A stretch of 64,000 nt of DNA from Schumannella sp. 10F1B-5-1 (GTDB lineage Bacteria > Actinomycetota > Actinomycetes > Actinomycetales > Microbacteriaceae): contig NZ_VHQH01000039.1 of the NCBI RefSeq assembly GCF_006517535.1, positions 1 to 64,000 on the forward strand, written 5' to 3'. The notes under the pieces are model-generated. The model saw nothing but the letters and a program-made list of their open reading frames with translations, searched no databases and was not told the DNA's origin. Position 1 is the stretch's first letter. Each line of letters begins with the position of its first letter. A program made the position numbers and the translations under genes. Shown here piece by piece: positions 5,111 through 33,038 of the stretch.

Positions 5111-5480
5111 GGGGATGATCGGTTTCGACATTGCCTGTGACCCTGCGAGAAGCGGGCCGAGGATGCAGGGTTATCTCGTTAACGCTCTCTGCAACCTATA
5201 GGTGCCAATTCCAAGCGCACCGACTTCGCCCTCGCTGCCTAAGCAGGGTTGAAAGTCCGTCAGACCGGGTTCGCCTTCGCCCCGGACCCTGGCGTCAGCT
5301 AGAAGGCTCGCTGCGGTGTCGTGTCTCAGGGCACCGCGGGACTTGCACTGAGACTGGGCCCGTCGATCTAGGCGTTCGTGACAAAGATCGGGGCCGAGCA
5401 GAACGTCTCCACGGACTACGCCCGTAGAAGGCGCAGCCTTGCAGCAGTGGACGGGGGTTCGATTCCCCCCATCTCCACCA
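5111..5480 (+). ncRNA. ssrA: tmRNA (transfer-messenger RNA)
   Basis: A 370-nt one-piece tmRNA. The 5' end GGGGATGATCGGTTTCGACA pairs with the 3' end CATCTCC followed by A-CCA, giving a seven-pair acceptor stem with one G-U. The T-arm GGACGGGGGTTCGATTCCCCC precedes the 3' end, and CCA is encoded. The tag reading frame is at 5205-5243. A possible -10 box TAGTAT lies at 5013-5018, which would give a precursor with a 5' leader of about 85 nt for RNase P to trim. The 3' end lies about 60 bp before the aldo/keto reductase gene. Confidence 0.97.
5205..5243 (+). other. tmRNA-encoded degradation tag ANSKRTDFALAA
   Basis: Within ssrA, translation resumes at GCC 5205 and ends at TAA 5241-5243, giving ANSKRTDFALAA. 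The ALAA ending is the ClpXP/ClpAP recognition tail conserved in actinobacterial tags. Whether the first Ala is encoded or supplied by the charged tmRNA depends on the resume codon, so the encoded part may begin one residue later. Confidence 0.85.
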
Positions 5481-28281: not shown

Positions 28282-28953
28282 TCAGAAGGTGCCAGTCGGC
28301 GAATCCTGGATCAGGATGCCGTCCTGGATGGCGCGGCGACGCAGGGCGACCTTCGTGCCCACGTCGATGCCGGCCACGCGGTACTTCTCGCGGATGCGCT
28401 TGAGGTAGCTCTTCGCCGTCTCCTCCGAGATGCCGAGCTTGTAGGCCACGGCCTTGACCGGCTCGCCGCCGCCGTAGAGCGCCATGACGCGGCGCTCCTG
28501 CGCGCTGAGCTTGGGGGCGCCGCCGATGTCGGCCGCGTTGATCGCGAGGTCGAGCTCGGCCGAGATGAAGCTCTCGCCCTGCGCGGCCGCGCGGATCGCC
28601 TCGACGATCATCGACGCGTCCTCGCTCTTGACCAGGTAGCCGAGCGCGCCGGCCGCGAGGGCCTCGCGCACGACGTTCGGCTCGGAGTAGGTGCTCATGA
28701 GCACGACCCGCACGCCGGTGGTCTTGAGCGTCGAGATCTTGAGCGCGACCGGGATGTTGTCCTTGAGGTCGAGATCGAGCAGCACGACGTCGACCGGGAA
28801 CTCCGGGTGCGTCAGCAGCTCGGGCCAGGTGGTGACGGCGGCGACCATCTGGATGTCGTCGGCGGCACCTCGGATCCACTCCGTCAGCGCTCCGAGGAGC
28901 ATCTTGTGGTCGTCGACCAGTGCGAGACGGATGCGCTCCGGGTAGTTGCTCAC
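28282..28953 (-). CDS. NarL/LuxR-family response regulator
   Basis: A 223-residue two-component regulator. Receiver residues: Asp pair in ALVDDHKML, phospho-acceptor Asp in VVLLDLDLKDN, Thr/Ser in LMSTYSEP, and Lys in GYLVKSEDAS. The output is a helix-turn-helix (LSAQERRVMALYGGGEPVKAVAYKLGISEETAKSYLKRI region), although the second half is less like classic LuxR than usual. It follows the two membrane proteins of the kinase locus by 41 bp on the same strand and has its own ribosome site GGAAGGA. It is the likely partner of the histidine kinase at 30290. Target genes are unknown. Confidence 0.9.
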   Translation of the reverse strand: MSNYPERIRLALVDDHKMLLGALTEWIRGAADDIQMVAAVTTWPELLTHPEFPVDVVLLDLDLKDNIPVALKISTLKTTGVRVVLMSTYSEPNVVREALAAGALGYLVKSEDASMIVEAIRAAAQGESFISAELDLAINAADIGGAPKLSAQERRVMALYGGGEPVKAVAYKLGISEETAKSYLKRIREKYRVAGIDVGTKVALRRRAIQDGILIQDSPTGTF

Positions 28954-28994
28954 GATGTGCTGTCCTTCCGTTCTCCGGCCCCTCCGACCGGACC

Positions 28995-30293
28995 TCAGTG
29001 CTCCGCCGGGTTGTCGACCAGGCAGTCGATGTCGACCCGCAGGCTCGAATCCTGAGTGCTGTCAGAGTATCGCCCCACTCGGCCGAGGGCGTCCCAGATC
29101 GACGGATCCACACGATTGCGCGGAACACCCGACGAGGTGAGCACGATCGGCACCGAGATCTTGCCCTCGATCGTCGACGCGCCGCCGACGACGGGGCCGA
29201 TCTCGATCGTGAGCGAGCGGGCGGTCGCCTTGGTCGTGTCGTTGACGAGCAGCCAGGTCGCGGCGAGCAGTCCGTCGCGCTGCGCGGCGTCGAGAAGACC
29301 CGCCAGACCGGACTTGTCGATCAGGGTCACGGCGCGGCCGAGCAGCTCGGACTCGCTGACCGCGTGGTAGAGCCAGGTCTCGCGGCGGCCCTCGATCAGG
29401 TGCAGGCGCAGCTCGGTCGCGAGCGAGGCGGCGACCGAGGCGGAGCGCGGGCTGAGCGGCAGGTTCGTGCGCCCTTCGGCGACGCCGTCGAGCAGCTCCT
29501 CGGCGGCGAGGTCGAGGCGGGCGAGCTCCTCGGAGGCGAGCATGCCGACCGCGAAGCGGGGCGCGGACACGGTGCTCTGCACGAGCGAGCGGTCGAGCTC
29601 GGTCTGCACCATCTCGCGGAACCCCTCGACGATCGCGATGCCGATCACCGCCGGCAGAACGGTTCCCGCGATGAGGTACACCTGATCGGGCCAGTTCGCG
29701 GCCGTCACGGGCGTGCCGAGGAAGACGGCGGCGATCAGCACGATCGCGAGCACGGCGGTGGCCGTGATGACCTCGGCGCGGCCGCGCAGGGTGACGATCA
29801 GCAGCATCCCCATGCCGGCGACGGCCGCGGCGGTCGCGTGACCGCCGAGGTCGCCGAAGCCCCAGGTCGCGGTGACGTCGAGCGCGACGGCCGCGCCGAG
29901 ACCCGCCAGGAAGATGCCGAAGCCCCAGGCCGGCAGCCGGTCGCCGACGACCCGCTCGATCACGATGACCGCGGCGAAGGAGGTGAGCAGCACGATCCAC
30001 GCCAGCAGGGCGATGACCGGCTGCGGGTAGTCGCCCCACGAGCCGAGGAACTCGGTGAGGCCGTAGACCGAGCGCAGCCCCACGACGACCGCGGCGCCGA
30101 AGCCGAGGAAGGTCGTGCCGAGACTCGCGCGGTGCGGCGACCCGGGGCGGGTGAGCCGGCGGGCGGTGCCGACGACGGCTCGGCCGGCGCGGCCGACCAC
30201 GATGCCGAGGGTGTTCTCCTCGGGGACGATGCTCTCGATGCCGTTCGCCCCGGCCGCGGTGCCGCCGCCGGTGCGCTTCATGCGCGGGCTCAT
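28995..30293 (-). CDS. Membrane protein partner of the histidine kinase (kinase-like, no catalytic motifs seen)
   Basis: A 432-residue protein with a hydrophilic N-terminus (about 70 residues), five to six membrane helices (about 75-225) and a cytoplasmic domain of about 200 residues. It has the overall plan of the neighbouring sensor kinase. I find no HxDT/E phospho-acceptor motif, no N box, and no glycine-rich G boxes. It starts MSPRMKRTGGG with an ATGA overlap on the kinase stop, so the two are coupled. It may be a pseudokinase or modulator that dimerises with the kinase. This is inference from gene order and plan only. Confidence 0.7.
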   Translation of the reverse strand: MSPRMKRTGGGTAAGANGIESIVPEENTLGIVVGRAGRAVVGTARRLTRPGSPHRASLGTTFLGFGAAVVVGLRSVYGLTEFLGSWGDYPQPVIALLAWIVLLTSFAAVIVIERVVGDRLPAWGFGIFLAGLGAAVALDVTATWGFGDLGGHATAAAVAGMGMLLIVTLRGRAEVITATAVLAIVLIAAVFLGTPVTAANWPDQVYLIAGTVLPAVIGIAIVEGFREMVQTELDRSLVQSTVSAPRFAVGMLASEELARLDLAAEELLDGVAEGRTNLPLSPRSASVAASLATELRLHLIEGRRETWLYHAVSESELLGRAVTLIDKSGLAGLLDAAQRDGLLAATWLLVNDTTKATARSLTIEIGPVVGGASTIEGKISVPIVLTSSGVPRNRVDPSIWDALGRVGRYSDSTQDSSLRVDIDCLVDNPAEH

Positions 30294-31459
30294 CGCGGCA
30301 CCTCCAGCACGACCGTGGTGCCCGCTCCCGGGGCCGAGAACAGGCGGGCGTTGCCGCCGACGTCGCGCAGACGGGCGACGACCGACTCGGCGAACCCGAG
30401 CTTCGCCTCGCCGACGTCGGCGATGTCGAAGCCGACGCCCTGATCGGTGACCATCGCGCGCACCGACGTCGCATCCTCGGTGATCGTGACGTGCGCCTGG
30501 GTCACGCCGGAGTGACGGCGCACGTTCTCGAGGCACTCGGCGAGGGCCAGCAGGAAGGCGTCGAGGATATGGCTGGGCAGCAGCAGCTGGCCGGTGCCGT
30601 GCCAGGTGACCTCGAGCCCCATCCGGCCGAAGCGCGACTTGACCGACTCGAGCGTCGTGCCGAGCTCGGTCTGCTCGACGGGCGTGAGGTTGTAGACGCC
30701 GGCGCTGGCGGGCGCGGGCGTCTGCCCGAGCCGCAGCTGGCGCAGCAGCTTGGCGTCGCCGGCGGCCTGCTCGCGCAGGGCGTCCTCCGAGACGCCGACG
30801 CCGGAGTGGGCGAGCAGCGTCAGCGTGGCGAGCACGGTGTCGTGCAGCAGACGGGCGCCCTGGCGGCGCTGGGCCTCGGTCTCGCTCGCCTGCCGCTCGG
30901 CGCGGTGCGCGCGGCCGATGCTGGCGATGCGGCGCGAGACGCGGGGGAGCCCGGCGCTCAGCCACACCGCGACGAAGGAGGTGACGGCCCAGCCGAGCAG
31001 CACGGGCCCGATCAGACGGAACAGGAAGACCTCGGTCGTGCCGAGCGAGCCCGCGAAGACGGCGATCGTGCCGGCGATCGCGGCGAAGCTCAGCACGAGG
31101 AGCACGATGCGACCGGGGGAGGACGTCAGAGTGAGCGCGACGCTCGCGGTCGCGCCGGCGGCGATCGAGGTCGCGGCGGCGATGGCGCCGGGCACGGTCT
31201 CGACATCGCCCGCGGCCACCAGGGCGACGATCACGCCGGCGCCGCCGAGCACCGCCAGGATGACCCAGAGGGGCGAGCGGCTCGCTCCCACGCGCCAGAG
31301 CGCGACCACCAGGACGAGGAACGGCACGGCGGCGACGGCCAGCGACGTCAGCGGGACGCCGCCCGCCAGGCACAGGAGCGCGACGACGGCGAAGCCGAGC
31401 CCGTAGATCCGCGCGATCCGCTGCAGCAGACCGTCGCGTTCCCGCGTCATCAGTTCCAC
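30290..31459 (-). CDS. Sensor histidine kinase (HisKA_3-like)
   Basis: A 389-residue membrane kinase. Six hydrophobic helices occupy about residues 13-170. The dimerisation helix carries phospho-acceptor His206 in GARLLHDTVLATL. The ATPase domain has the N box ECLENVRRHSG (Asn312), G1 VTDQGVGFDI and G2 APGAGTTVVLEV. No extracellular sensor loop of note is visible, so the signal is probably membrane-borne or passed on by the partner protein. The start is GTG 31459 with AGGAGG upstream; ATG 31450 is possible. It heads a three-gene leftward operon with the partner and the response regulator. Confidence 0.88.
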   Translation of the reverse strand: MELMTRERDGLLQRIARIYGLGFAVVALLCLAGGVPLTSLAVAAVPFLVLVVALWRVGASRSPLWVILAVLGGAGVIVALVAAGDVETVPGAIAAATSIAAGATASVALTLTSSPGRIVLLVLSFAAIAGTIAVFAGSLGTTEVFLFRLIGPVLLGWAVTSFVAVWLSAGLPRVSRRIASIGRAHRAERQASETEAQRRQGARLLHDTVLATLTLLAHSGVGVSEDALREQAAGDAKLLRQLRLGQTPAPASAGVYNLTPVEQTELGTTLESVKSRFGRMGLEVTWHGTGQLLLPSHILDAFLLALAECLENVRRHSGVTQAHVTITEDATSVRAMVTDQGVGFDIADVGEAKLGFAESVVARLRDVGGNARLFSAPGAGTTVVLEVPR

Positions 31460-31505
31460 GCCGGTGAATCCTCCTCAATGTGCGCGCCTGATCCTCCCAG
31501 ACTGT

Positions 31506-31519
31506 CCCCGTTTATGGGG
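31506..31519. promoter_or_regulatory. Inverted repeat CCCC-GTTTAT-GGGG before the kinase operon
   Basis: Read leftward as CCCC-ATAAAC-GGGG, this lies 47 bases before the kinase start codon. Its A/T-rich centre stands out from the very high GC surroundings, which suits a -10 region or operator. The binding protein is unknown. Confidence 0.35.
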
Positions 31520-31564
31520 GTGCCACGCGGGTGCGGCGTGCCGTTAGCGTTGCTCTCGGTAAGA

Positions 31565-31742
31565 GGGGGCCGATCTTCTTCAGATCGGAAGCCACGCTTG
31601 ACCGGACCGAGGTCGACATCCCGCATCGGGGGATGCGCGTCGACCCGCATCGGGGGATGCGGAATCGGTTCGGACGCCGCACATCGGGGGATGAGCGGCA
31701 CCGGGGGAATCACGGAGGGCCGCGTCGGGGGACGCGGCCCTC
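31565..31742. repeat. GGGGG-rich hairpin cluster in a 372-bp gene-free region
   Basis: The gap 31460-31832 contains no gene. On the plus strand six GGGGG runs occur at 31565, 31628, 31652, 31686, 31703 and 31727 (a seventh at 31516). Several form stem-loops with GGGG as the loop: GCATC-GGGG-GATGC twice (31623-31636 and 31647-31660), CATC-GGGG-GATG (31683-31693) and a 12-bp stem at 31715-31742. Another hairpin, CCGATCT-TCTTC-AGATCGG, lies at 31570-31588. A plus-strand TAGCGT (31545-31550) could start an RNA of about 185 nt ending at the last hairpin. Confidence 0.6.
31715..31742. terminator. Hairpin terminator downstream of metX
   Basis: GAGGGCCGCGTC and GACGCGGCCCTC form a perfect 12-bp stem with loop GGGG (CCCC on the minus strand). 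It lies 90 bp beyond the metX stop and on the plus strand is followed by CGATTCCGTT. Confidence 0.65.
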
Positions 31743-31755
31743 GATTCCGTTAACG

Positions 31756-31827
31756 GCCGGATGCGCCGGTCGACCTGAGTGCGCCGGATGCGCCGGTCGA
31801 TCTGGATGCGCCGAATGCCCCGGATGC
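31756..31827. repeat. 27-bp period direct repeat next to the metX stop
   Basis: GCCGGATGCGCCGGTCGA occurs at 31756-31773 and 31783-31800, with a degenerate third copy from 31810 (GCCGAATGCCCCGGATGC). The units contain the hexamer GGATGC that is over-represented throughout the window. Confidence 0.75.
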
Positions 31828-31832
31828 GCCGC

Positions 31833-33038
31833 TCAGGCCGCGAGCAGCCGCGCGATCTCGGCTCCCACGCGCTCGAACTCGATGAGGAACGCGTCGTGTC
31901 CGTAGGGCGACACGAGCTCCACCGCCGCATCGCCGTCGATGTTGCCCGGCACGTGGCGCGCGATCACGCGCTGCCCGCTCAGCGGGAACAGCCGATCCGT
32001 GTCGACGCCGAGCACGAGCGTGCGCGCCGTGACCCGGCCGAGCGCCGCGGCGACCCCGCCGCGGTCGCGGCCGACGTCGTGCGAGTTCATCGCATCCACC
32101 AGCACCAGGTAGCTGTTCGCGTCGAAGCGGCGCGTGAACTTGTTGCCGTGGAAGCCGAGGTAGCTCTCGACCGCGAACACGCCGCCGCCGCCCAGGGGGC
32201 TGATGCCCGACTGCCAGCTGCGCTCGAAGCGGTCGTCGAGCTCGGTCGGCGAGCGGTAGTTGAGCAGCGCCATGCGTCGGGCGAGCGCGAGGCCGTGATG
32301 CGGGCCGGCGCCGTCGGCGCGGTCGTAGTAGTCGCCGTCGGCGAAGGCCGGGTCCATGCGGATCGCCTCGGACTGCACCGAGTTGAGCGCGATCTGGTCG
32401 GCGCCCGACAGCGGCGGCGCGGCCAGCACCGCCAGGCGCTCGACGCGCTCGGGATGCTCGATCGCCCACTCGAGGGCGTGCATCCCGCCCATCGAACCGC
32501 CCACGACGAGCGCCCAGCGGTCGATGCCGAGCTCGTCGGCGAGGCGGCGCTGCACCTCGACCTGATCGCGGATCGTGACGTAGGGGAAGCGCGGACCCCA
32601 TTCGCGCCCGTCCGGCCCGAACGACGCGGGGCCGGTCGTGCCCTGGCAGCCGCCGAGCATGTTCGGCGCGACGATGAACCACTCGGCCGGGTCGAGCGCG
32701 AGCCCCGCGCCGACGACGCCCGACCACCAGCCGCCCGTGGCGTGACCCGCGCCGGCCGATCCGATGACGTGGCTGTCGCCGGTCAGCGCGTGCAGCACGA
32801 GCACGGCGTTGCTGCCGTCGGCGTTCAGCTCGCCCCAGCTCTCCCAGGCGACCGTCACGTGCGGCAGGTGGCCGCCGCGCTCGAGATCGAGCGGGCCGAT
32901 GCCGGTGAATCGGCGGTCGCCGGGGTCGTCCCCGTCGCGCCAGGCGCCCGAGGCGGGCGGGGCTCCGATCAGGGCCCGCCGGTTCGCGTCGGTGACGAAG
33001 GCGGAGGGGACGGCGTCTTCGGGGGTCTGCCAGTCCAC
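31833..33038 (-). CDS. metX: Homoserine O-acetyltransferase
   Basis: A 401-residue alpha/beta hydrolase-fold enzyme transferring acetyl from acetyl-CoA to homoserine, the first committed step to methionine. Motifs are YETWG-equivalent VAWESWGELNADGSNAVLV, HALTGDSHV, the nucleophile elbow VGGSMGGMHALEW, and the catalytic Asp/His near the end, VLGVDTDRLFP and SPYGHDAFLIEF. Acetyl versus succinyl specificity cannot be settled by eye; acetyl is usual in actinobacteria. GTG 33038 is preceded by GGGAG at eight bases. It lies downstream of metY, separated from it by a terminator, so it may have its own promoter. Confidence 0.92.
   Translation of the reverse strand: MDWQTPEDAVPSAFVTDANRRALIGAPPASGAWRDGDDPGDRRFTGIGPLDLERGGHLPHVTVAWESWGELNADGSNAVLVLHALTGDSHVIGSAGAGHATGGWWSGVVGAGLALDPAEWFIVAPNMLGGCQGTTGPASFGPDGREWGPRFPYVTIRDQVEVQRRLADELGIDRWALVVGGSMGGMHALEWAIEHPERVERLAVLAAPPLSGADQIALNSVQSEAIRMDPAFADGDYYDRADGAGPHHGLALARRMALLNYRSPTELDDRFERSWQSGISPLGGGGVFAVESYLGFHGNKFTRRFDANSYLVLVDAMNSHDVGRDRGGVAAALGRVTARTLVLGVDTDRLFPLSGQRVIARHVPGNIDGDAAVELVSPYGHDAFLIEFERVGAEIARLLAA

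Follow-up and report, generated by a model that had tools for sequence, protein, structure and literature searches.

Most known small-RNA sponges, which titrate a regulatory RNA by base pairing with its seed, are from Gram-negative bacteria; the sponge formed by a tRNA 3' external transcribed spacer and one from Vibrio are examples of such RNAs. A related strategy is seen in the CsrA-titrating RNAs of the CsrB/RsmZ type, which present an array of hairpins with exposed G-rich loops and are often under two-component control. The 6C RNA (RF01066) is found in many actinobacterial genera (PMC4046766) and is the B11 RNA of mycobacteria (PMC10470900; PMC12395582). Its C-rich loops are described as acting on a G-tract that lies within a 5' untranslated region (PMC10470900), and its seed can, in the case described in PMC12395582, be the C-rich loop of its terminator. 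Our search of the open-access literature returned no report of any RNA that counteracts 6C.

Here we describe a candidate small RNA from the gap between metX and a histidine kinase gene, parts of which are antiparallel complements of 6C. The two have homopolymer-loop hairpins in common; however, the candidate has G loops where 6C has C loops, is of opposite sense, lies at a different locus, and carries the reverse complements of the 6C tail, linker and loops. We consider it fairly probable, on the basis of sequence comparison, that the gap gives rise to a small RNA of about 185 nt from its plus strand, one with relatives in 13 genera of the family, whose most likely role is that of a dedicated antagonist (sponge) of 6C. 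The proposed mode of action, titration of a small RNA through its seed, is the same as that of the sponges described elsewhere. The candidate differs from these in having a gene of its own with a presumed promoter and terminator, in its occurrence in Actinobacteria, and in aiming several hairpin loops at homopolymer loops in addition to a two-site clamp. Its array of hairpins with exposed G-rich loops resembles that of the CsrB/RsmZ-type RNAs, but CsrA was not found in its genome (PF02599; present in three of 14 control genomes), and we rejected a CsrA-titrating RNA as its identity.

Anatomy of the metX-kinase gap

The window is the whole stretch of DNA that was analysed, 64,000 nucleotides from Schumannella sp. 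10F1B-5-1. On its minus strand the genes run in the order metX (31833-33038; an alpha/beta hydrolase fold protein, named as in the preliminary description of this DNA), a gap of 373 nt, a sensor histidine kinase with an HATPase_c domain (30290-31459), a protein without a Pfam match and, downstream of the kinase, a LuxR-type response regulator with Response_reg and GerE domains (28285-28962). The histidine kinase is also present in three other genomes of the genus, with 87% identity in two of them; Schumannella soli is a named close relative, with a kinase identity of 87%. The gap had been described as gene-free, and mechanical reading frames cross it; the four frames that were tested matched no Pfam family, which, together with the single-base gaps between congeners, argues against a coding gene. 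Rfam gives no match in the gap at its gathering thresholds, in line with the preliminary description, to whose author no RNA family of this form was known.

The gap probably holds a plus-strand small-RNA gene at about 31557-31742, divergent from the kinase and convergent with metX, with a predicted start some 6-7 nt past the -10 element and a predicted end at the terminator. The plus-strand TAGCGT at 31545-31550, pointed out previously as a possible promoter element, is -10-like, and the relatives have TACAGT or another TAnnnT at the same place; a generic sigma-70 scan found no promoter for the candidate RNA. Between the presumed divergent promoters lies an inverted repeat, CCCC-GTTTAT-GGGG (31506-31519), a possible operator whose centre is about 44 nt ahead of the presumed start of the RNA.

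The RNA would open with the 5' site AAGAGGGGG (31561-31569), in which AAGAGGGG could form 8 bp with CCCCUCUU, the tail of the 6C encoded in this genome; part of AGAGGGG is also predicted to pair inside the candidate RNA itself. This site is followed by the perfect hairpin P1 (CCGATCT/AGATCGG, 31570-31588), which differs by a double change between the two congeners, and by GCCACG (31591-31596), the complement of the linker CGUGGC in that 6C. Next come three GGGG-loop hairpins, CGCATCGGGGGATGCG (31622-31637), CCGCATCGGGGGATGCGG (31645-31662) and CATCGGGGGATG (31682-31693), then the segment GGGGGAATC (31703-31711), a 9-bp complement of GAUUCCCCC in 6C loop 1, and finally a terminator-like hairpin with a 12-bp stem and a GGGG loop (31715-31742). 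No U-run follows this hairpin in the window, while U-runs do follow the terminator on the plus strand of L109 and L103; the hairpin might also serve metX on the opposite strand. Several longer members of the group (L040, L043, L049, L050, L051, L054, L138, L143 and L144) have an extra hairpin with a CACCCGAA-like segment, which is absent from the window.

P1, the 12-bp terminator stem, the four GGGG-loop hairpins and the seven GGGGG runs are all as first reported, the runs starting at exactly 31516, 31565, 31628, 31652, 31686, 31703 and 31727. The gap contains the densest 240-nt cluster of runs of five or more G in the window, with seven against three in the best cluster elsewhere. Hairpins with a GGGG tetraloop and four or more Watson-Crick pairs in the stem occur six times on the plus strand of the 64 kb, four of them in this gap. 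The expectation from mononucleotide shuffling of the window is 10.4 per 64 kb, and single hairpins of this kind are therefore ordinary; the unusual feature is the presence of four inside about 110 nt, in register in two congeners. The genome has five copies of the sequence CATCGGGGGATG, three in this region and two elsewhere.

Conservation beside the kinase

The search for the kinase gave matches in 138 of 199 genomes, at 139 places; upstream DNA was studied for 90 of these (30 automatically, 60 fetched), and after L079, in which neither gene could be placed, had been dropped, 89 kinase loci were counted. AGAGGGG preceded by TAnnnT occurs 20 times in these loci, in each case 80-150 nt from the kinase start, a range that was fixed only after the first cases were known; the combination occurs nowhere else within 1,400 nt of the 89 loci. 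In each of these 20 loci TAnnnT precedes AGAGGGG by no more than 33 nt. The 20 represent 13 genera by the genome labels of the kinase search; AGAGGGG is missing at that position in the remaining 69 of the 89. All counts and tests treat related loci as independent. Four related-looking loci without AGAGGGG (L039, L109, L111 and L007) were excluded from the counts, and L107, which carries CGAGGGG, was included in the 20-locus helix and duplex tests and replaced by L037 in the positional count of 20.

Downstream of AGAGGGG the order of elements is a hairpin, GCCAC, a variable part, a GGGG-loop hairpin and the terminator. Exact GCCAC follows in 14 of 18 loci, against 0.10 expected from mononucleotide shuffling; the count of 18 excludes L036 and L107, which are without a GCCAC-like site, and becomes 14 of 20 with them. 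These two were also excluded from one alignment, along with L032 and L033. A GGGG-loop hairpin of at least three pairs is present in 18 of 24 loci. If a response-regulator or lipoprotein-like gene separates metX from the kinase, the RNA element remains with the kinase. In the metX-kinase gaps of L025, L033, L034, L045, L048, L104 and L106, which measure 938-1,197 nt, there is an apparent extra gene, lipoprotein-like by eye. The pattern TACAGT-AGAGGGG-GYCACR has nine matches in 398 genomes of the family, against five for its reversed control, and all nine lie divergently upstream of the same kinase. The conserved position of the element, its anatomy, the strand signals and the complementarity are what the sequence comparison shows.

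The closest comparison is provided by the congeners L023 and L024, which form a trio with the window. Both share the window's layout, including four AUC-GGGG-GAU hairpins of which the terminator is one, and keep the -10 region, AAGAGGGGG, a P1 hairpin and AAGCCACG. The hairpins stay paired in the congeners through double changes: eight of 74 predicted pairs in the trio show a change on both sides with pairing kept, and in a wider set of loci six of 24 pairs have double-sided changes. Comparison with relatives therefore supports what the preliminary description had suggested, a structured RNA read from the plus strand, some 185 nt long and bounded by TAGCGT and the terminator.

The inverted repeat of the window (31506-31519) also has counterparts, in that TGGCACCCCC...GGTGCCA forms in relatives resemble it. 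In the 60 loci with gaps of 100-1,300 nt, L007 included, on which the gap-based comparisons were made, 27 have GGGGGTG no more than 150 nt from the start of the kinase. Inverted repeats of the TGGCACCCCC...GGTGCCA type recur before the kinase also where AGAGGGG is absent, for example in L026, L027 and L029, and this recurrence suggests an autoregulatory operator.

A covariance model of the 5' module was applied to 13 held-out loci and detected three at E <0.01 (L138, L143 and L144) and three weakly (L034, L033 and L140); it missed seven, the window among them (six of the 12 others), and its best match in the window, at 31266, is probably due to chance. Among 119 genomes of the order the model gave one weak match, in G089, which belongs to the same family; this match does not lie at the kinase of that genome and was taken as chance. 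As the model misses about half of the loci, this result says little about whether the RNA is absent elsewhere.

Complementarity to 6C and a proposed model of antagonism

The 6C RNAs of these genomes comprise a C6-loop hairpin, a linker UGUGGC (CGUGGC in the trio), a second C6-loop hairpin and a tail CGCCCCUCU. A search at E 0.1 recovered them from 29 of 30 genomes, in every case below the Rfam cut-off, and they were recognised by these shared features; the window genome's own 6C (G000:C316:102804) scores 40.8 bits, itself below the cut-off. The candidate RNA comprises AGAGGGGC(G), a hairpin, GCCACA (GCCACG in the trio) and the G-loops, and its pieces are the reverse complement of 6C in reverse order, flanking 6C hairpin 2: AGAGGGG matches the 6C tail, GCCAC the linker, and the G-loops the C6 loops. 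An inverted copy of 6C was rejected, as a linear 6C profile gave no match below E 1; the best match, in L107 (E 1.7), lies on the opposite strand of the RNA, and the other placeable ones lie elsewhere. A second weak 6C-like match in the window genome (G000:C321:271424-271490, 33.9 bits) is without C6 loops and looks like an ordinary GC-rich terminator.

When the 50-nt 5' module was paired with the 6C of its own genome and compared with 300 dinucleotide shuffles, the mean z over 20 loci was -2.95 (range -0.81 to -6.11), with p <0.05 in 15 of 20, values that serve as guides only since the complementarity was noticed once the motifs were known. The duplex of the window itself is not above its shuffles (z -0.81, p 0.25), and p also exceeds 0.05 for L031, L033, L036 and L044. 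In all 20 loci the module pairs more strongly with 6C than with 6C read backwards. Given the weak 5' pairing of the window and its omission by the covariance model, its membership in the group is carried by synteny, motif order and the trio. A sponge should show extended complementarity to the seeds of a single small RNA and retain it in its relatives, and this was found here except for the window's 5' module.

A plus-strand RNA with a different partner is the alternative that we rank next, as an unlikely but serious one: its G-loops would pair with C-rich sites in mRNAs or be bound by a protein, while the resemblance to a 6C complement would be a by-product of setting G-rich against C-rich sequence. 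The loops of most genera read ACC-GGGG-GGU, so that their match to 6C is a bare 6-nt G-run only; no 6C counterpart was noted for the CACCCGAA-like hairpin of the longer members; and the weak 5' duplex of the window points in the same direction. GCCAC, however, is not a G-run and matches 6C too, in the correct order around hairpin 2. Furthermore, when 16 genomes chosen among those with the RNA were searched for the bipartite target site, 6C was the only such site common to all 16 and the sole site in nine of them. The search gave 28 sites against 88 for the reversed control, which means that the bipartite pattern is itself not rare; in the window genome there are three (6C, the opposite strand of the small-RNA gene and one other) against two for the reversed control. 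As for a protein partner, CsrA, which reads GGA loops, was not found in this genome.

Four of the 20 RNA/6C pairs have CCCCCGAU in a 6C loop, and three of these RNAs, the trio and as such one clade, carry AUCGGGGG; the fourth, L107, is without AUCGGGGG although its 6C (G200) has CCCCCGAU. AUCGGGGG is also present in one of the 16 pairs whose 6C is without CCCCCGAU (L025). The variable base of the linker shows no covariation with 6C; it pairs in 15 of 18 cases and is mismatched in G002, G040 and G161. The 6C linker is altered to UACGGC or UGCGGC in G149, G164 and G200, and the tail is altered too (CCCCUUCU) in G149 and G200; the RNAs of these three genomes, at L109, L111 and L107 respectively, lack GCCAC and keep UGGGGGGAA. 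The changed 6C RNAs with their GCCAC-less neighbours are a natural test of co-evolution.

From these data we propose a model for the antagonism of 6C, in which transcription, the promoter, binding, antagonism and control are all read from sequence. The 5' AGAGGGG would pair with the 3' tail of 6C and GCCAC with the linker ahead of the last 6C hairpin; because the two sites lie on either side of it, this hairpin would be clamped from both sides. The GGGG-loop hairpins, four in the window including the terminator, would form kissing contacts with the C6 loops, the parts of 6C that bind G-tracts in mRNAs, and the clamping RNA would compete with the targets of 6C. A 6C molecule occupied in this manner would be unable to repress them. 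The promoter region shared with the kinase, and the inverted repeat within it, suggest that the small RNA may be under the control of the adjoining two-component system, made up of the kinase and the response regulator. The full reading, a Microbacteriaceae family of two-component-controlled anti-6C RNAs that clamp the last 6C hairpin from both sides and offer GGGG-loop decoys to the C6 loops, is one towards which we lean only slightly.

To our knowledge no dedicated antagonist of 6C has been described so far, and an anti-6C RNA would be the first. If the model is correct, the number of loops and their flanks would be tuned to the local 6C; the tandem AUC-GGGG-GAU hairpins of the trio, in which 6C carries CCCCCGAU, would be an instance. 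With a conserved antagonist encoded next to a two-component system, 6C activity would be adjusted by a signal. Such an RNA would also offer a genetic means of manipulating 6C in harmless soil bacteria and bring the Actinobacteria into the range of small-RNA sponges.

Strand of the candidate RNA and possible DNA-level features

The strand was put to the test because palindromes look alike on both strands. A functional minus strand, either a degenerate 6C paralogue or a part of the kinase or metX mRNA (its leader or 3' region) with CCCC-loop hairpins, is in our estimate improbable. This strand carries C-loop hairpins and CCCCTCTT, together with a weak Rfam match to 6C at 31608-31663 (18.6 bits, E 4.9, gathering threshold 47 bits), and the window taken alone folds further below its shuffles there (z -3.40, against -2.30 on the plus strand). 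The trio alignment has some covariation on the minus strand (1.1), but more on the plus strand (3.0). The plus strand is likewise favoured by RNAalifold in the other three of four overlapping alignments (2.8/-0.2, 2.3/0.0 and 0.1/-2.4, plus over minus), the sign of these scores having been set by agreement with the analysis of the wider set. In the terminator and P1 helices of 20 loci, G.U pairs, which form on the plus strand only, outnumber A.C combinations, which would be pairs on the minus strand only, by 16 (9+7) to 5 (2+3); the terminator rule gave no helix for L054 and L103 and chose another hairpin in L043. The same helix list has nine GNRA tetraloops on the plus strand and none on the minus strand. 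Folded singly, 22 of 24 sequences give the lower energy on the plus strand, a comparison in which the G/U-richer strand tends to fold lower anyway. TAnnnT is positioned for plus-strand transcription, and the minus-strand counterpart of 6C hairpin 2 is without a C6 loop. That the region is itself 6C was rejected both on the low score of the Rfam match and on the two stem-loops with about six C per loop by which 6C is described (PMC4046766), as the plus strand has GGGG loops and the minus strand, against which the strand signals speak, CCCC loops.

We think it very improbable that the region is devoid of RNA function and acts solely at the level of DNA, as a terminator working in both directions, an operator for the kinase gene and a set of local GGGG-palindrome repeats. 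The hairpin at 31715-31742 sits past metX and could end its transcript, imperfect GGATGCGCC repeats adjoin it, and CATCGGGGGATG has its two further places in the genome; against this, P1, GCCAC and AGAGGGG recur in many genera outside the terminator and operator, and the changes in the hairpins are compensated. The G-quadruplex suggested earlier can practically be dismissed: despite the seven GGGGG runs and one loose motif on the plus strand with loops up to 12, prediction for both strands found no canonical motif (G3+, loop length 1-7), the starts of the runs are 17-63 nt apart, and several runs are predicted to lie within hairpins.

Two further features of the window were observed, a tmRNA gene at 5111-5480 and imperfect tandem GGATGCGCCGG repeats at 31756-31831, directly past the metX stop codon.
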